Positions 10,818 through 19,240 of a stretch of 33,580 bases of DNA are shown one piece after another. The stretch's first letter is position 1; each line of letters begins with the position of its first letter. Source of the DNA: Acidimicrobiia bacterium (lineage in GTDB: Bacteria; Actinomycetota; Acidimicrobiia; Spongiisociales; UBA5794); assembly GCA_030066875.1 (NCBI GenBank), contig JASJAS010000027.1:1-33580 (forward strand), written 5' to 3'. Under the pieces are notes generated by a model. That model made no database searches. It saw only the letters and a list, made by a program, of their open reading frames with translations, and was not told the origin of the DNA. The translations under genes were made by a program, and so were the position numbers.

Positions 10818-10868
10818 ATCTGCAGCCGAAGTGGCCATGCACGGGGAGACAGCACGACGGAGGAGCAG

Positions 10869-12209
10869 ATGGCAAAGCGTAAGGTGATCATCATCGGGGC
10901 CGCGGGCCGCGACTTCCACAACTTCAACACTCGCTTTCGCGATGACGACGGTGTCGAGGTAGTTGCGTTCACAGCCGAGCAGATTCCCGGCATCGAGGAC
11001 CGGATCTACCCGGCTGAGCTGGCAGGGCCGTTGTACCCCAACGGTATCCCGATCTACACCGAGGATGATCTGCCGCGCTTGATCGTCGAGCTCGGCGCCG
11101 ATGAATGCGTCTTCTCCTACAGCGATATCTCGTACCAACACGTCATGGGCGTTTCGGCCATTGTCCAAGCTGCGGGCGCTTCCTTTACTCTCCTAGGACC
11201 CAGCGACACGCAGATCAAGAGCACCAAGCCAGTCATCTCGGTGTGTGCGGTTCGCACCGGTGCCGGCAAGTCGCAGACTTCCCGCGCCGTAGTGGAAAGG
11301 CTCATGGCGAAGGGGCTCAAGGTAGTTGCCATCCGCCACCCCATGCCGTACGGCGATCTGGCGGCACAGAAGGTGCAGCGCTTTGCCGAGATCGCCGATC
11401 TCGAGAAGCACAACTGCACGATCGAGGAGATGGAGGAGTACGAGCCGCACATCGTTCGCGGCAACGTCATCTACGCCGGTGCGGACTACGAGGCAATAAT
11501 CCGCGCCGCAGAGAACGATCCGGCTGGATGCGATGTGATCGTATGGGACGGCGGCAACAACGACTTCTCGTTCTATGAAGCGGATCTGGCGATCACCGTC
11601 GTTGATCCGCACCGGCCCGGCCATGAGCTCAGTTACTACCCCGGTGAGGTCAACCTGCGCACCGCCGATGTCGTCATCATCAACAAAATCGACTCTGCCG
11701 ACCTGGCAAACATCGAGACGGTCCGCGAGAACATTGCGAAGACCAACCCGAATGCCAGGGTGATCGACGCAGCCTCCACGCTGCGCCTGCAGGACCCAAC
11801 TGTGGTGGATGGCAAGCGAGTCCTTGCCATCGAGGACGGCCCCACCCTGACTCATGGCGGCATGAAGATCGGCGCAGGTGTCGTGGCTGCCCGCAAGTAT
11901 GGGGCGACGGAACTCGTTGACCCTCGGCCTTACCTGGTCGGCAGGCTCCGGGAGACCTTCGAGACCTATCCGGAGATTGGAACCATCCTCCCGGCAATGG
12001 GCTACGGCGAGGAACAGCTGCGGGATCTCGAGGCCACTATCAACACCACTGACTGTGACGCAGTTGTCGTGGGCACTCCGATCGACCTGGCACGGGTGGT
12101 CAACATCGAGAGACCGCACACCCGGGTCTTCTACGATCTTCAGGAGATCGGCCAGCCCAACTTGGACGGCGTCCTCTCCGAGTTTGTCGACAAGCACGCC
12201 CTCGTCTGA
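10869..12209 (+). CDS. COG2403-type predicted GTPase / cyclic 2,3-diphosphoglycerate synthetase-like protein
   Basis: MAKRKVIIIGAAGRDFHNFNTRFRDD ... VCAVRTGAGKSQTSRAVVERL (P-loop) ... VVIINKIDSAD. The longer ORF start at 10377 is antisense to ald and not credible. Confidence 0.8.
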   Translation: MAKRKVIIIGAAGRDFHNFNTRFRDDDGVEVVAFTAEQIPGIEDRIYPAELAGPLYPNGIPIYTEDDLPRLIVELGADECVFSYSDISYQHVMGVSAIVQAAGASFTLLGPSDTQIKSTKPVISVCAVRTGAGKSQTSRAVVERLMAKGLKVVAIRHPMPYGDLAAQKVQRFAEIADLEKHNCTIEEMEEYEPHIVRGNVIYAGADYEAIIRAAENDPAGCDVIVWDGGNNDFSFYEADLAITVVDPHRPGHELSYYPGEVNLRTADVVIINKIDSADLANIETVRENIAKTNPNARVIDAASTLRLQDPTVVDGKRVLAIEDGPTLTHGGMKIGAGVVAARKYGATELVDPRPYLVGRLRETFETYPEIGTILPAMGYGEEQLRDLEATINTTDCDAVVVGTPIDLARVVNIERPHTRVFYDLQEIGQPNLDGVLSEFVDKHALV

Positions 12210-12284
12210 TCGGTCAGCAGCGATAGAGTGTGCCGGGGTGATCGGGTCGGTGACTCGCCCCTGCTCGGCAGTGAAGGGAGCCAC

Positions 12285-14093
12285 GTGGCAAGTCCGCTGA
12301 AGCCAGCGACCGAGTTCGAGATCAACCGCTACCACGTCGATCTGTCCTCGCTTGCGGTTCGCCACGAGCGTGTACGCTGCACCGATTTCGAAGATGTCCT
12401 CGGGGGAATCGCACGAGCTACCAAGCTGCTCGCCGGCGTCGAAATCACCGACTCCTACGACCCACAAGCTCCGCTTGTCATGAACCTCGGCCTGCTCAGC
12501 GGCACCCGGGTCATGACGGGGCTGCGCACGTTCTTCCACGGCTATTCGCCGCTCAAGCAAGCCGGCAACGGCAGACCGGGGCTGATGTGGTCGGCCGGCA
12601 GCGGGCATTTCGGAACCAAACTGCGGGGCCTCGGCATCGACGAGGTGATCTTCACCGGCCGGGCCGAGCAACCGACTCTGCTTCACCTGTCTGCCGATAA
12701 GGATGGAGGACCGGCTCGCTTCGAATTCCTCGACGCCTCCGACCTGCGGGGGCGGATGGTGAACGACCGAATCCAGGACCTCCACAGACGCTATCCCGAC
12801 GCCCACTTCGCAAGCATCGGTCCCGCCGGCGAGAACTACGAAACGGTGAGGTTCGCCTCGATCGCGCTATCGACCGACAACCAACTCGAAACCGGCGATG
12901 CCAAGCCCCGCTACTGCGGCCGGGGCGGCTACGGCGGTTTGATGGCATCCAAGAACCTATGGGCGATCGCCGCCGAAGGACCCAATCCGGCGCGAGTCCG
13001 TGGCCTCCGTGACGTCAACAAGGAGATCAACCTCGGTGAAGGCAGCGCCCGCTACCGCGATCTGCCCAACGACCGGGGCGGAACCTGGCGAAATATGAAG
13101 ATGATGCAGGAAGCCCAGTCGCTTCCGGAGTTCAACTTTGCTCCGACGGGGACGGAGTTGTCGAAGCCACTCCTCCGCCCGAGCGTCGAAGCCGGCCCCT
13201 ACGTTGTACTTGCCGAGAGCTGCTACTTGTGCGGCATCAGATGCCACAAGAACGTCTACAAAGAGGTTGACGGCGAAGCCGGTGGGTTCCACGCCAAGGT
13301 CGACTACGAGCCGTTGACTCTGTTGTCGTCAAACCTCGGGATCTTTGAGCCTGACATCGTGTTCGACCTGATCCACCTGATCGACGAGCTCGGGATGGAC
13401 TCAATATCGCTCGGGGTCACACTCGGGTATGCGATGGATCACAACCGGCGGACCGGAGCCGGAACCCTCGGCGGATTGAGCTTCGGCGACGCCGAAGGCG
13501 TCTTTTCCGCCGTCCGTGCGGTGGCCGCCGGCGAGCTCCCCGATCTCGGCCAGGGTGTGAAGCGGTTGTCGGAGCAGGTTGGCGAGACCGCGTACGCAAT
13601 GCACTCCAAGGGGGTCGAGTACCCGGCCTACCAACCCCATACCAACCCCGGATTCCCCTGGGCGCTGGCAGGCGGCCACATGTCGATGCGCACGTTCTTC
13701 CTTTATGTGATCGAGCGTGAGACCGATGTCGACTACTGGGTCGATGCCATCACCAATCGTGGCCCGCTCATCCTGATGGATGACATCACCGGACTCTGCA
13801 AGTTCGCCGCCATCACTCCTGAGGTAGAAGCGGAAGCGCTTCGCATTGCCACCGGTCTCGACATCGACGGCGAACAGCTGCGACGGGCGGTCGCAAACAC
13901 GTTTCTGCGGGGCTACGCCTGCGAACGTCGCGTCGGGTTCGACGCTGCCGACTACCGACTACCCGCCGTTGCCCATGAGCCGATGGGAGCCTCAGATCTC
14001 GCCCACTTCAACACGCCGGATTTCTTCGGCCAGGTGCAACGGCGCGTGCTGGCGATCCTCGACGAAAGGGCTACCGCGGCTGGCTTCATGTAG
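12285..14093 (+). CDS. Aldehyde:ferredoxin oxidoreductase family, tungsten-type
   Basis: RYCGRGGYGGLMASKNLWAIAAEG; 4Fe-4S ligand pattern CYLCGIRC (CxxCxxxC) plus late GLCKF; GTG start preceded by AAGGGAG. Confidence 0.92.
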   Translation: MASPLKPATEFEINRYHVDLSSLAVRHERVRCTDFEDVLGGIARATKLLAGVEITDSYDPQAPLVMNLGLLSGTRVMTGLRTFFHGYSPLKQAGNGRPGLMWSAGSGHFGTKLRGLGIDEVIFTGRAEQPTLLHLSADKDGGPARFEFLDASDLRGRMVNDRIQDLHRRYPDAHFASIGPAGENYETVRFASIALSTDNQLETGDAKPRYCGRGGYGGLMASKNLWAIAAEGPNPARVRGLRDVNKEINLGEGSARYRDLPNDRGGTWRNMKMMQEAQSLPEFNFAPTGTELSKPLLRPSVEAGPYVVLAESCYLCGIRCHKNVYKEVDGEAGGFHAKVDYEPLTLLSSNLGIFEPDIVFDLIHLIDELGMDSISLGVTLGYAMDHNRRTGAGTLGGLSFGDAEGVFSAVRAVAAGELPDLGQGVKRLSEQVGETAYAMHSKGVEYPAYQPHTNPGFPWALAGGHMSMRTFFLYVIERETDVDYWVDAITNRGPLILMDDITGLCKFAAITPEVEAEALRIATGLDIDGEQLRRAVANTFLRGYACERRVGFDAADYRLPAVAHEPMGASDLAHFNTPDFFGQVQRRVLAILDERATAAGFM

Positions 14094-14095
14094 AG

Positions 14096-16027
14096 CTATC
14101 GCTCGAAACCCAACGAGCGCAACCCGGCTGTTGCCGCCGGATCCTCGAGTAGCTCTCGCAATGCGGCCACCGCGGGCTTGTCCCATCGGTCTTCCGGGAT
14201 GGCAAAGTCGTACTCCTCGTCGTGGATGAACCTGAAGCCCAGGCCGGCGCTCTTCGCAACAGTGTCGATGGCGAACCCCCAGTCGGCTCTTCCCTGGCTT
14301 ACCGCAGCGGCCACAGCATGATGCGTCCTGGCCTGGTGGAGATAACCCGGCGGAGCCTTCCCTCCGAGCAGCCGGTCGATCAGGACCCGGGTTCCGCTGC
14401 CCGGGTTTCGGTTGACCATGCGCCGCGGCCCGGAAGCGAGCATCTCGGGCAGGTCGTCATCAGGAACGTCTGCAAGCTCAGAATCCTCGTGCCGGTACAC
14501 GATTCCCTGACGGCGCCGGTAGCCTCGCAGCAGCCTCACCCCGTTCGGGAGAAAGGGAGTGTTGTAGCGCCCGGACGTTTCGTCCAACAAGTGAACACCC
14601 GCAACATCGGCTTCACCGCGCCCGACCGCAGTGAGGCCACCGCTGGAACCGACGGGAACCATCTTCACCGCGTAGCCGCCGTCTGCGAGCATCCCGAGCA
14701 GCAAGTCGAACCCAACACAATGACTCCCGATGGCCACTAGGTCGGCCAGCGCAAGCTCCGGCTTGAACAGGTGAACGTCGACAACCGCACCTTCTTCGAC
14801 ATACTCGGTCGACGACGGAATCCGAATGAAGCCATCTGCCCTGCCGAAAGCGGTGACACTGCCCGAGCCGGCTCCGATGGGATATGCCGCCAATCCGGAT
14901 GGTCCCCGCACGAGCTCGACCAGGTTGTATTCGGTGCGGCCCGTGGCCGAGCCGATGCGCAGCGGTACGTGCGCGGAGATTGACTTGCGCTCCCGCCCGG
15001 AAAGTCCAGAGAGACGGCGTAACAACGGCGCCACGAACTCGTGGAAGGTGAAGATCGCCGAGGTTGGGAAACCCGGGAGAACTACCACCGGCGTGCCGGA
15101 GATGGCTGCCAGCAAGACCGGTTTGCCCGGCTTCAACGCAACGCCATGGACCACAACACCAGCCGATTCGGGAAGCCTATCCGCCAAGCTGTGCACCACG
15201 GTGGCGTTGAGGTCTCCTTCACCCTTTGAAGTTCCGCCGCTGAGCAGCACGACATCGACGGTTTCACCGACCAGCAGCTGTTCAACCGTTTGTTCGAGCA
15301 CCGCCTCGACATCCGGGATGATCCCGCAGGGCACAGGCTCGCACCCAAGTTCGGCGATTGTGTCCAGCAGAATGCGCTGATTCGAATCAAACACCTGACC
15401 CACGCGCAGGGGTCTGCCCGGAGCCACCACCTCGTCACCGGTTGAGATGACGGCCACCCGAGGCTTGGCGATCACCGAGACTTGTGCTGCACCAATGGCT
15501 GCCAGAATTCCGGTTTCGTGGGCTGCAAGCCGAGCACCTCGCCGGATGACCGTTTCGCCCCGACCGATATCCGAGCCGGCGAAGGTTATGTTGGCGCCGG
15601 GCACGACCGGCTTCGTGATCCGGATGCCATCCGGTGCGGGTTCGGTGTTTTCAACCATCACCACCGCATCCGCACCGCGGGGCACAACGGCACCGGTGGC
15701 GATCGGAACCGCGACGCGCGGCTCCAATTCGAGACCTGAGGGTGGTTGCTGACCCGCAGCCAAGGACAAGCCGGCGAGGCGGAGCGCGATCGGCTCCAGC
15801 TCCTCAGCACCGAAGGTGTCTTCGGCGCGGACGGCAAAGCCGTCCATATTGGATCGGTCGAAGGCGGTTACATCGACCTCGGCGACAACGTCCTCGGCAA
15901 GGACCCTGCCCAGTGCCGCAGCCAGCGGTATGTGCTCCACACGAGGCTCGAGATGCGCACAGGCTTCACTGAATCGCGCGTGGGCAACCGACTCGTCGAC
16001 CACGTCGAGAAACTGCCGTTGCTTCAC
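14096..16027 (-). CDS. MoeA (molybdopterin molybdenumtransferase) fused to a C-terminal PBP/LysR-substrate-like domain
   Basis: MoeA motifs FDRSNMDGFAVRAEDTFGA, GDEVVAPG, VLLSGGTSKGEGD, VVLPGFPTSAIFTF; C-terminus ALADLVAIGSHCVGFDLLLGMLADGG ... MVNRNPGSGTRVLIDRLL. GTG start overlaps the previous stop (GTGA). Confidence 0.88.
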   Translation of the reverse strand: MKQRQFLDVVDESVAHARFSEACAHLEPRVEHIPLAAALGRVLAEDVVAEVDVTAFDRSNMDGFAVRAEDTFGAEELEPIALRLAGLSLAAGQQPPSGLELEPRVAVPIATGAVVPRGADAVVMVENTEPAPDGIRITKPVVPGANITFAGSDIGRGETVIRRGARLAAHETGILAAIGAAQVSVIAKPRVAVISTGDEVVAPGRPLRVGQVFDSNQRILLDTIAELGCEPVPCGIIPDVEAVLEQTVEQLLVGETVDVVLLSGGTSKGEGDLNATVVHSLADRLPESAGVVVHGVALKPGKPVLLAAISGTPVVVLPGFPTSAIFTFHEFVAPLLRRLSGLSGRERKSISAHVPLRIGSATGRTEYNLVELVRGPSGLAAYPIGAGSGSVTAFGRADGFIRIPSSTEYVEEGAVVDVHLFKPELALADLVAIGSHCVGFDLLLGMLADGGYAVKMVPVGSSGGLTAVGRGEADVAGVHLLDETSGRYNTPFLPNGVRLLRGYRRRQGIVYRHEDSELADVPDDDLPEMLASGPRRMVNRNPGSGTRVLIDRLLGGKAPPGYLHQARTHHAVAAAVSQGRADWGFAIDTVAKSAGLGFRFIHDEEYDFAIPEDRWDKPAVAALRELLEDPAATAGLRSLGFER

Positions 16028-17529
16028 GAGGGCAAGCCGGACTGGTAGAGATGTACCTCCACCTCGGCGCCGGAGGGGTATCCCTCGAGCCCGGCGGGAA
16101 CGACGACGAACCCGTCCGCCCGGGTCACCGACGACAGAACCGAGGCTCCGGAAATCGCCAGCGGACGAACGACAGGGCCGTCGACCTGGACGCGGGCATA
16201 GTCGGTGCGACCGATCTGCGAGACCAGTCTCGACTCGAGCGGTAGCCGCACCGACCGGTAGGGCCACTGCTCGGGGAGGCCGGCAAGACGGCGCACGACC
16301 GGCCCCGCAAAGAAGTCGTAAGCGACAAGACACGACACGGGATTGCCGGGCAGCAACAAGATTGGGACGCTCCCAAATCTCCCGACGCCGGTTGGCGACG
16401 ACGGCCGCATCGCTACGCCGTGGACGATCAGTTCGCCGAGCTCATCCACCAACACAGGTACGAGGTCTTCGGTTCCCACCGAGGCTGCGCCCGCCGTCAC
16501 GATTACGTCTGCGCCGGGCTGACTCAGCGCGGCTCGCATCTCGTCTATGTCGTCGGGAACACGGACCACCTCCGGAATCCCGCCATCTCGATCGATCAAG
16601 GCCGACAGCATGGGAGAGTTGCTGTCAACGATGCTCGTACCGTGTGGCGACTCCCCCGGTTCGAGCAACTCGTCGCCGGAGACGACAACGCGAACCCGGG
16701 GCCGGCGGATCACCAAGACCGGGCTATGGCCGATGGAGCTGAGCAGCCCAACATCCTGGGCTAGCAGTCGTCGTCCCGTCGTCAGCACGCGGTCGTCAAC
16801 GGCGATGTCCTCACCGACGCGGCCGACGTTCTTACCGGGTGGCACAGCAGCACTCACTCGGACCGAGCCTTTTGCCTCTACCGCGTCCTCGGCGCGCAGC
16901 ACCGCGTCTGCCCCGTCGGGCACCGGTGCACCCGTCATGATGCGCACTGCGGCCCCGGGCTGAACCTGTAGCGAAGCGCCTGCTCCCGGCAAAGACTCAC
17001 CGACGACGCTGAGCTCGATCGGGCTGTAGGCAGAAGCTCCAAATGTGTCGTCGGCACGGACCGCATACCCGTCCATCGTGGCCCGGCGGAATGCGGGGAC
17101 ATCAAATCTGCTGACCACGTCTTCACCCAGCACCCTGCCTGAGCATGCGTGCAACGAAACCGGCTCGACTGCGAGATGCTCAACCCCGTCGAGCGCCGCC
17201 TTCCGGGCCTGCGCCACCGTGGCCCGCTCCCGAAATCCGCGCATCCGCACGTCGTGGGCGCCGCCGACGATGCTGATGAGGATGTCGATCCGATCACCGG
17301 CTGCGACAGGTCGAGTATCCAGCTCCTCCCGGGCGACGAGCTCCTCTTCGTGGAAGATGGCCAGATGCGGATGAGCCGCCCCCGCGGTATCGAACAAGCG
17401 GGGGGCGAGTTCAGGGTGCAGCGCCGTGGCCGCTCGCAGTGCAGCGCCGACAGTCTGTCCATCTCCGTCGACGAACTCTGACCCCGCTGCATACTTGCGC
17501 AGCTGGCTGGGAAGCCGCACGGTTACCAC
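16024..17529 (-). CDS. Fusion of a MoaD/ThiS-like ubiquitin-fold domain (ending IVGG) with MoeA
   Basis: N-terminus VTVRLPSQLRKYAAGSEF ... AGDRIDILISIVGG, then MoeA VPAFRRATMDGYAVRADDTFGA ... VVVSGDELLEPGE ... LLLPGNPVSCLVAYDFF. Start GTG 17529 overlaps the preceding TAA. Confidence 0.85.
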   Translation of the reverse strand: MVTVRLPSQLRKYAAGSEFVDGDGQTVGAALRAATALHPELAPRLFDTAGAAHPHLAIFHEEELVAREELDTRPVAAGDRIDILISIVGGAHDVRMRGFRERATVAQARKAALDGVEHLAVEPVSLHACSGRVLGEDVVSRFDVPAFRRATMDGYAVRADDTFGASAYSPIELSVVGESLPGAGASLQVQPGAAVRIMTGAPVPDGADAVLRAEDAVEAKGSVRVSAAVPPGKNVGRVGEDIAVDDRVLTTGRRLLAQDVGLLSSIGHSPVLVIRRPRVRVVVSGDELLEPGESPHGTSIVDSNSPMLSALIDRDGGIPEVVRVPDDIDEMRAALSQPGADVIVTAGAASVGTEDLVPVLVDELGELIVHGVAMRPSSPTGVGRFGSVPILLLPGNPVSCLVAYDFFAGPVVRRLAGLPEQWPYRSVRLPLESRLVSQIGRTDYARVQVDGPVVRPLAISGASVLSSVTRADGFVVVPAGLEGYPSGAEVEVHLYQSGLPS

Positions 17530-18104
17530 TGCGGTTCGCCTCGTACCGAAAGCGTCTCCAACCACCGGAGCAGCCGACCCCCGGTTCGCCAGATCGCCCA
17601 GCCCATCAGCCCGCCGAGGGCGCCAAAGACCACATGATTCGCTAGCGACTTCATCAAGCCAAAGACCTCGACGTTGCGCACCATGTCGGCCATCCAGGCG
17701 TTGGCAAAGATGTACCCGAACTTCGCCAGGTGCACAAGGGTTCCGGCGATCATGGCTCCCCAGAATCGGTGGATTGGCAACCGCAGCATGGCCCCAGAGT
17801 CGAGCAGTGCCCCCGCCATGCCATAGAGGACGGTGTTGTAGGCCATCGAGTGGTTGAGCCCTACCGGTACGCTCCACAATCCCATCGAAAGGCCGGCGAT
17901 GGTAGCCATTCCCGGTCGGTCGTTTCCAAGGCGGCCGGCGATTAGAACACCGATCCAACCGACACCGGCGTGCCCGGGTATGCCCAGCGAGAAGTCGAGG
18001 TAGCGTTTGGCCAGGGCAGCCAGCAGCCCGGTGGCGATCGCCAGCAGCACGGCTACCGTCGGTGAAACGCGCCGGCGCGAGTCAGTTGGGGCGAGCGTCT
18101 GCAT
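17523..18104 (-). CDS. Small integral membrane protein, possibly ECF-transporter S-component-like
   Basis: 193 aa, several hydrophobic segments (VAVLLAIATGLLAALAKRYLDFSLG; GVGWIGVLIAGRLG; MAYNTVLYGMAGALLDSG); overlaps neighbours on both sides. Confidence 0.6.
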   Translation of the reverse strand: MQTLAPTDSRRRVSPTVAVLLAIATGLLAALAKRYLDFSLGIPGHAGVGWIGVLIAGRLGNDRPGMATIAGLSMGLWSVPVGLNHSMAYNTVLYGMAGALLDSGAMLRLPIHRFWGAMIAGTLVHLAKFGYIFANAWMADMVRNVEVFGLMKSLANHVVFGALGGLMGWAIWRTGGRLLRWLETLSVRGEPQW

Positions 18105-18813
18105 TCACCCACCTCTCGCCTTCTCGCCTTGCTACCAACACCGGCATGCCTCCAGTCACCCTGGGACGCACCCAGTCTCCCAGATCCACGGTGGACTCGG
18201 CGCGCAGTGACCTCGAGGAGCTCGCATCGACAACGTCGATGATCCCGGTCCGGTCCAGGATCTCCGCGACCGTCAGTACGCCTCCAACGTCGCGGATTCC
18301 TCCGAGCCCGACAAAGCGCCCGTCATTGCCCTCGCAGCGCAGAGCCAGTGCCGCAAGCGCCCCGATGACGCCATCCTTGGTCCCACCGAGACCGACGAGC
18401 CGGACGCCATTGTCCTCCGCCAAGCGGTGCGCCTCCGGCTGGGTGACAAGACCCACCTGGGCGGCCCTGGCGAACTCGACCAAGGCATTCGCTGGAGTCA
18501 GCTGTGCCATGGCTACCCCGGGATCGGACCCGGCGACGCTTTCTTCCTTGACGAAGTCGGTGACCGCGTCGAACAACCGGGCCGGCGCGGCAATCTCGTC
18601 GCAAACCAACGCAGCTGCGGAGTTGCGCGATGTCTTGGGCACGCCCGCCCCCTCGAAGAGTTGATGACGGCTGACTCCCCGCGACCGTCCGAGTCCGGAG
18701 CCGGCAATGGCGTCGGCGAGACGACGGGCAAGTTGTCCGGTGCCGCCTTCATGCGGCATATCGGTGTCATCTATCCCGATGACCCAATCAGGAGAACCGG
18801 ATCTCGGCAACAT
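18082..18813 (-). CDS. TiaS-like (tRNA(Ile2) 2-agmatinylcytidine synthetase-type) domain protein, function unknown
   Basis: N-terminal WVIGIDDTDMPHEGGTGQLARRLADAI resembles the IGxDDTDS..GG..T signature; LVGLGGTKDGVIGALAALAL follows. Confidence 0.6.
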   Translation of the reverse strand: MLPRSGSPDWVIGIDDTDMPHEGGTGQLARRLADAIAGSGLGRSRGVSRHQLFEGAGVPKTSRNSAAALVCDEIAAPARLFDAVTDFVKEESVAGSDPGVAMAQLTPANALVEFARAAQVGLVTQPEAHRLAEDNGVRLVGLGGTKDGVIGALAALALRCEGNDGRFVGLGGIRDVGGVLTVAEILDRTGIIDVVDASSSRSLRAESTVDLGDWVRPRVTGGMPVLVARREGERWVNADARPN

Positions 18814-19240
18814 CTCTCACCCACTGCTGACGGGGAAGGTCGATCGCAGCAAGCTTGAGAGTGCCTCGATTGGTCACGTCGAGAACCCAGGTGTCATCCA
18901 CCTCGGAAGCGTCGATCTCGAGAGCAACGGCAACAACCCTTCCCTCGCTCATCCCCAGGACTTCGGCAGACCTCCAGTCGTCGACACCGGAGGCGGCTAC
19001 CACGCCGAGCAGCGACGGACCGGATTCGATATCCCCGTCGACGGTGATCTCAGCCGTTGGGACCTCTTGTTCGAGTTCCGCCAGCGTCCAGTCGCGTACA
19101 ATCTCGTCGCCAACAACGATCCGGAGTACCACGTCCTCGGCCGGAGGTGCCTCGGCTGACTCGTCGCCACTACTGCAACCAGCGACGATGACTCCGACCA
19201 ATCCCAGCAATCCGATACAGCTCAACAACCGATCCGGCAT
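18788..19240 (-). CDS. Lipoprotein with a possible molybdopterin-oxidoreductase-like (SUOX-type) fold domain
   Basis: Lipobox LVGVIVAGCSSGD; DWTLAELEQEVPTAEITVDGDIESGPSLLGVVAASGVDDW weakly recalls the substrate-side domain of SUOX-type proteins. Confidence 0.5.
   Translation of the reverse strand: MPDRLLSCIGLLGLVGVIVAGCSSGDESAEAPPAEDVVLRIVVGDEIVRDWTLAELEQEVPTAEITVDGDIESGPSLLGVVAASGVDDWRSAEVLGMSEGRVVAVALEIDASEVDDTWVLDVTNRGTLKLAAIDLPRQQWVRDVAEIRFS

Follow-up and report, generated by a model that had tools for sequence, protein, structure and literature searches.

The window analyzed here, the whole of a 33,580-nt stretch of DNA from an Acidimicrobiia bacterium, encodes a ubiquitin-like (Ubl) domain and a metal-inserting MoeA as a single chain. 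The Ubl domain ends in a Gly-Gly that is invariant among its relatives yet internal in the gene product, where it could become C-terminal only after a cut. The question raised by the locus is whether the fusion is a precursor from which the Ubl domain is released or a protein that works in one piece.

Results

A ubiquitin-like domain is fused to a complete MoeA

The fusion gene encodes a 501-residue protein on the minus strand, from a GTG start codon at 17529 to a stop codon at 16024-16026 (Table 1). The plus-strand frame over 16024-17529 is interrupted by many stops. Upstream of the GTG, the open frame continues into the gene for a membrane protein; the start was set at 17529 because nearly all homologs begin with [MVL][VAP]xxR[LI]P and because the gene then briefly overlaps the 3' end of the one upstream. 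A preliminary description of this interval had proposed a MoaD-like domain joined to a full MoeA without a stop, and both translation and Pfam searches agree, with the minus strand as the coding strand. The domain boundary was confirmed by profile searches and structure prediction: the Pfam match to ThiS spans residues 4-90 (E 6.3e-6, above cut-off), those to MoeA_N, MoCF_biosynth, and MoeA_C cover residues 104-494 (all above cut-off), and the AlphaFold model passes from a beta-grasp fold into a MoeA helix. An assembly or frame error was ruled out as the source of the fusion by the existence of 14 distinct fused sequences, the window's included (499-503 aa; one is cut by a contig end). The window's fusion is 60-70% identical overall to the others.

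Table 1. Features of the fusion locus, with positions in the window
Feature	Position	Strand	Evidence
P-loop GTPase, CobW/cDPGS-like, conserved AORa partner	10845..12209	+	Pfam cobW, E 7.3e-6; beside AORa in most clustered loci
AORa, divergent aldehyde ferredoxin oxidoreductase homolog, convergent with the operon	12228..14093	+	Pfam AFOR_N, AFOR_C; co-occurs with Ubl
Second MoeA with PBP-like C-terminal domain (MoeA-PBP), next gene of the operon	14096..16015, coding from about 15988 or 16015	-	NF011068, 694 bits, above cut-off; Pfam PBP_like
MoeA1, residues 93-501, complete insertase, begins DVRMRGF	16027..17253	-	Pfam MoeA_N, MoCF_biosynth, MoeA_C; 1uz5 and other MoeA structures
Internal Gly-Gly, predicted cleavage after Gly90	17260..17265	-	Invariant in 14 fused and 4 free relatives; coil, pLDDT 65-70
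MoaD/SAMP1/WorX-type Ubl domain, residues 1-90, ends Gly89-Gly90	17260..17529	-	Pfam ThiS, NF041918, CysO (3dwg), AlphaFold
Conserved 193-aa membrane protein overlapping the fusion start	17523..18104	-	Adjoins Ubl in L187, L193, L228, L229, L234, L238
Methanogenesis marker 11/TiaS-like protein	18082..18813	-	TIGR03280, E 1.1e-14, below cut-off; conserved neighbor
150-aa lipoprotein-like protein, conserved neighbor	18788..19240	-	No Pfam above cut-off; kept in L187, L193, L229, L238

The Pfam ThiS match recurs in 10 of the 14 fusion members. In a search of curated models, the best match of the Ubl domain was SAMP1 (NF041918; E 2.7e-8, 34 bits vs. a cut-off of 60), and the model for MoaD sensu stricto (TIGR01682) gave no match. 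The term "MoaD-like" therefore holds in the sense of a ThiS/MoaD-type beta-grasp domain, but "MoaD" itself is a loose label, since SAMP1 outscores the moaD models. Among solved Ubl structures, only CysO (3dwg, E 1.4e-4) matched. The AlphaFold model of this part consists of beta-grasp strands and helices with pLDDT values mostly of 80-93. In close pairs, dN of the Ubl domain is well below dS, indicating that this part of the protein is maintained.

The top fold matches of the remainder, MoeA1, are MoeA structures. The oxyanion-pocket KPGK of Escherichia coli MoeA is replaced by RPSS, which is invariant in the 14 fusions; the Ser of NPVS (E. coli Ser303) and the equivalents of D59, T100, E188, and D228 are kept. 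A tungsten or molybdenum preference was sought in the MoeA1 pocket and abandoned: the Methylorubrum tungsten marks Arg291 and Ala312 are absent (the positions are Ser378 and Ser399, as read off the alignment by eye). The two adjacent MoeA proteins differ in their pockets, with KPGK...FPTS in MoeA-PBP and RPSS...NPVS in MoeA1, and these cluster-paired proteins could form a heterodimer.

The internal Gly-Gly is invariant and lies in a coil

Gly89 and Gly90 are encoded by GGC GGC (17265-17260). The preliminary description had named orthologs lacking this pair as evidence against its proposal; all 14 fused sequences and all 4 free relatives retain it. Across these 18 proteins, only 7 of the 90 columns of the Ubl domain, Gly89 and Gly90 included, are invariant (chance of both falling among the invariant columns, 0.005, assuming equal columns). 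In the AlphaFold model (14 sequences, mean pLDDT 77.7), the last beta-grasp strand spans residues 80-85 and the first MoeA helix residues 94-100, and the coil between them (86-93) has a pLDDT of 65-70. In the model the Gly-Gly is thus exposed, in a low-pLDDT coil between two folded domains, and is probably accessible to a peptidase.

The segment previously taken for a linker, AHDVRMRGFRERATV, proved to be the start of MoeA: unfused MoeA relatives have a conserved D[VI]RMRGF close to the N terminus, read as DVRMRGF, DIRMRGF, or a near variant in MoeA1 proteins of Actinomycetota and Acidobacteriota bins. The spacer between Ubl and MoeA is then two residues, A-H in the window (A/S/V/G followed by D/E/H across the family), or three in G251 (GGGHDDVRM).

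The carrier and MoeA1 occur apart

The fusion was found in 13 of 395 genomes of the class, spread over five families of one order, and in one further genome (L034); a phylum-level sample of 397 genomes gave none beyond that order. The named relatives bear the record titles of uncultured Acidimicrobiia, Actinomycetes, and unclassified bacterial bins. Fused MoeA1 proteins are dispersed over the actinobacterial part of the MoeA1 tree, in which many forks are weak; their distribution requires at least five changes, most simply read as one gain and about four losses. Several separate lineages have MoeA1 without the carrier. In L006 and L040, MoeA1 is kept and the Ubl gene is broken, reading MAIVEMR and MTIVEMR, respectively, before a stop codon just ahead of the relic ...ALIGGA[DE]DVRMRGF.

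Free carriers were found in four genomes. That of G017 ends in SVVGGAPT and takes the fusion's position, flanked by the membrane-protein gene and AORa, in window-like synteny; the separate MoeA1 of this genome carries the junction relic LIGGADDVRMRGF. The carrier of G354 ends in SIVGGAA. In G268 and G102, free Ubl proteins encoded beside AORa end exactly at the Gly-Gly, and G268 has a second copy of the Ubl in a fusion elsewhere in the genome. These free carriers show that Ubl and MoeA1 are separable. The carriers of G017 and G354, with three and two residues past the Gly-Gly, would still need trimming, which fits a lineage that already processes such proteins.

The carrier co-occurs with AORa

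AORa is present in every one of the 16 Ubl genomes but in only 24 of the class's 395 (Fisher p 6e-23; 3e-13 when counted by genus, kinship being ignored). The remaining AORa genomes are seven of genus g7, in two of which a MoeA1 without Ubl was read, and G002, whose AORa locus stops at a contig edge. AORa adjoins the Ubl locus in the window and in many relatives, a WorX-like placement. The distribution of the Ubl follows AORa, not MoeA1 or AORb, and its restriction to AORa genomes points to a WorX-like carrier serving AORa. The presence of AORa without the carrier in genus g7 indicates that the carrier is not essential to every AORa. A division of AORa into carrier-linked and carrier-less clades was considered and dropped, as the tree yields no two clean clades. 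AORb, a second AOR type about 25% identical to AORa, lies directly upstream of MoeA1 in many relatives (e.g., L192:7956-9929) and was not found in the window.

Partner proteins and candidate peptidases

The window's genome contains genes for MoaE and a MoeB/ThiF-type E1, and its MoaE retains the KARVPIWKKE stretch. No free housekeeping MoaD was found in 15 genomes searched at loose thresholds. The only other moaD-type domain in these genomes is itself fused: its PPVSGG end leads into some 250 residues predicted to form 4-9 membrane segments, for which there is no Pfam family. This fusion was seen in 28 of 30 inspected loci (L123-L152; L148:1489-2478 on contig C147 in the window's genome) and may be the housekeeping MoaD, here too with its Gly-Gly inside the chain. 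Its presence rules out, as stated, the idea that the fused Ubl is the only MoaD of the genome; a 331-aa ThiS match at first taken for ThiS-ThiG is this same membrane-protein fusion. In these cells, a working MoaE would require some internal Gly-Gly to be freed. Two further types of free Ubl were seen: a family ending in AVSGG, whose gene directly follows that of a BNR/sialidase-like repeat protein (L180:3093-3413, L190:1336-1614), and a TtuB-like, 64-aa ThiS-like protein ending in VISGG, adjoining a TtuA-like tRNA thiolation enzyme (L182:2424-2618, L184:2664-2858). Neither is a likely partner.

Prok-JAB (JAMM) peptidases were detected in 47 of 60 relatives and in 38 of the 41 high-quality genomes among them. 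Nine of the 13 fusion genomes have a JAMM gene, namely all eight that are at least 87% complete plus G005; none was found in the window's genome (81% complete), G351, G322, or G376, all four at most 85% complete. In a simple pattern search, the HxH...SxxD catalytic pattern was present in 6 of 8 JAMM loci inspected. As the family is nearly universal in the order, its presence speaks for availability and establishes no specific link to the fusion.

Discussion

Known systems related to the fusion

Mycobacterial MoaX, the precedent offered in the preliminary description, is an apt one: it is cleaved at Gly82-Ser83, and the cleavage is required for function (PMC4326299). Like the window's fusion, MoaX comes from Actinomycetota and has the same order of parts, with an N-terminal Ubl and a conserved internal Gly-Gly directly before a cofactor enzyme. 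In MoaX the partner is MoaE and cleavage has been demonstrated, whereas here the partner is MoeA and cleavage is predicted. HvJAMM1 cuts SAMP1-MoaE exactly after the Gly-Gly (PMC4443979). Such JAMM-cut linear Ubl-MoaE proteins (the HvJAMM1 case and DR0402 in Deinococcus) share with the window's protein a SAMP1-type Ubl and a junction Gly-Gly, and JAMM genes occur in most fusion genomes; they differ in having MoaE as partner, whereas the window's MoeA fusion is known from sequence and its genome yielded no JAMM.

Among AOR-linked carriers, AorD and AorE of Aromatoleum (PMC6365974), WorX, with a putative role in pterin synthesis (PMC13328260), and UblC of Thermococcus kodakarensis, which adjoins AOR in an organism whose UblB is required for the tungsten cofactor (PMC11323500), resemble the window's domain as ThiS-like proteins encoded beside AOR and thought to serve tungstopterin synthesis. 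Those known are free or, in Azoarcus, fused to AOR, whereas the window's Ubl is fused to MoeA. MoeA is also joined to other cofactor proteins in MoeA-MobB and MoeA-PBP, but the added parts have no Gly-Gly tail needing release. Mec is a JAMM that acts at the C terminus of CysO, the one solved Ubl protein matched by the window's domain; CysO, however, is free and serves cysteine rather than cofactor synthesis.

The fusion as a probable precursor

By analogy with these systems, the Ubl-MoeA fusion is probably a precursor, cut after Gly90 into a WorX/SAMP1-type sulfur carrier for the AOR of the locus and MoeA. The carrier would be translated as one chain with the metal-inserting MoeA1, and cleavage after Gly90 by a peptidase, in all likelihood a JAMM/MPN+ one, would yield a carrier of 9.5 kDa whose Gly-Gly is free and a MoeA of 42.8 kDa beginning Ala-His-Asp-Val-Arg-Met. 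The carrier would then be adenylated by the MoeB/ThiF-type E1 of the genome and thiocarboxylated, and together with MoaE would give sulfur to molybdopterin, into which MoeA1 and the MoeA-PBP encoded by the next gene would insert W or Mo. In this scheme, the cleavage, the identity of the peptidase, the thiocarboxylation, and the metal are what we infer.

The precursor reading is favored because the Gly-Gly is invariant while few columns of the domain are, and sits in an interdomain coil; because carrier and MoeA1 each occur apart, with the carrier confined to AORa genomes; and because MoaE, E1, and, in most fusion genomes, JAMM are present, with MoaX and SAMP1-MoaE as precedents. Counting against it are the four fusion genomes in which JAMM was not found, the AORa of genus g7 that lacks a Ubl, and the long retention of the fusion, not to be expected of a purely neutral one.

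Alternatively, the fusion would remain uncut and the Ubl would tether MoeA to MoaE, E1, or AOR, so that the pterin is handed straight over to the insertase, with the Gly-Gly as a mere flexible hinge. The fused state is old and common, the MoaE-binding surfaces of a MoaD would suit docking, and no peptidase was found in the 81% complete genome of the window. A hinge, however, needs no two invariant glycines, yet the pair is invariant at 37-60% domain identity, and it is present in free carriers with nothing to hinge, ending exactly there in G102 and G268. We consider such a tether unlikely. A regulated precursor, in which the Ubl would hold MoeA inactive as SAMP1 does MoaE and one cut at the Gly-Gly would start sulfur donation and metal insertion together, seems quite unlikely; if true, carrier and MoeA would arise in equal amounts and two steps of the pathway would be coupled by ubiquitin-style cleavage.

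More doubtful is a Ubl that acts as a SAMP1-like protein modifier instead of a sulfur carrier, the fusion being a store of modifier or a modified, switched-off MoeA activated by JAMM. The domain scores best against SAMP1, which inhibits MoaE until JAMM frees it (PMC4443979), and Ubl proteins of T. kodakarensis perform both jobs (PMC11323500), but SAMP1 also acts as a MoaD, no conjugation genes were seen in the locus, and the genes with which the Ubl is associated are those of AOR and the cofactor. Finally, the internal start suggested in the preliminary description, which would yield a separate MoeA1 besides the fusion and spare MoeA1 any cleavage, is highly improbable. In its favor, L006 and L040 keep MoeA1 despite the destroyed MoaD frame and must therefore use a start close to DVRM, and Met96 is invariant. 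Met96 is just as conserved in unfused proteins, however; no conserved start codon or Shine-Dalgarno sequence was found at the junction in the 12 sequences checked (six of them encode residue 94 by GTC, GTT, or ATC, and GGAGG-like sequences, present in 4 of 12, lie 13-16 nt from the Met96 ATG, too far); and the Gly-Gly of the carrier would stay unfreed.

A new partner for Gly-Gly fusions

Precursor fusions cut after Gly-Gly are a known kind; MoeA as the partner is new. The available excerpts of fusion surveys list MoaD-MoaE, MoaD-MoeB, and MoeA with a periplasmic-type domain, and no MoaD-MoeA appears in them (PMC11237513, PMC1779556). A literature search of incomplete coverage gave no relevant match for a MoaD-MoeA fusion, which may be recorded somewhere without comment. 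The fusion places a metal insertase among the partners to which bacteria join a ubiquitin-like carrier through its Gly-Gly, and the fused, split, and carrier-less relatives within one order are a natural test case for cutting and for the roles of AOR-linked carriers. Taken with the order-wide MoaD-membrane fusion, the finding suggests that precursors are the routine form in which sulfur carriers are made in this lineage, in which case a Gly-Gly peptidase should be required for cofactor synthesis.

Neighboring genes

An Rfam scan of 9-21 kb gave nothing above threshold, and no Moco-type riboswitch was seen. MoeA-PBP follows the fusion in every locus long enough to tell. The membrane protein overlapping the fusion start has no Pfam match and might be a metal transporter component. 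The P-loop GTPase is one that we take to resemble cDPG synthetase-type proteins. The protein resembling methanogenesis marker 11 and TiaS stands here in a bacterial AOR locus.
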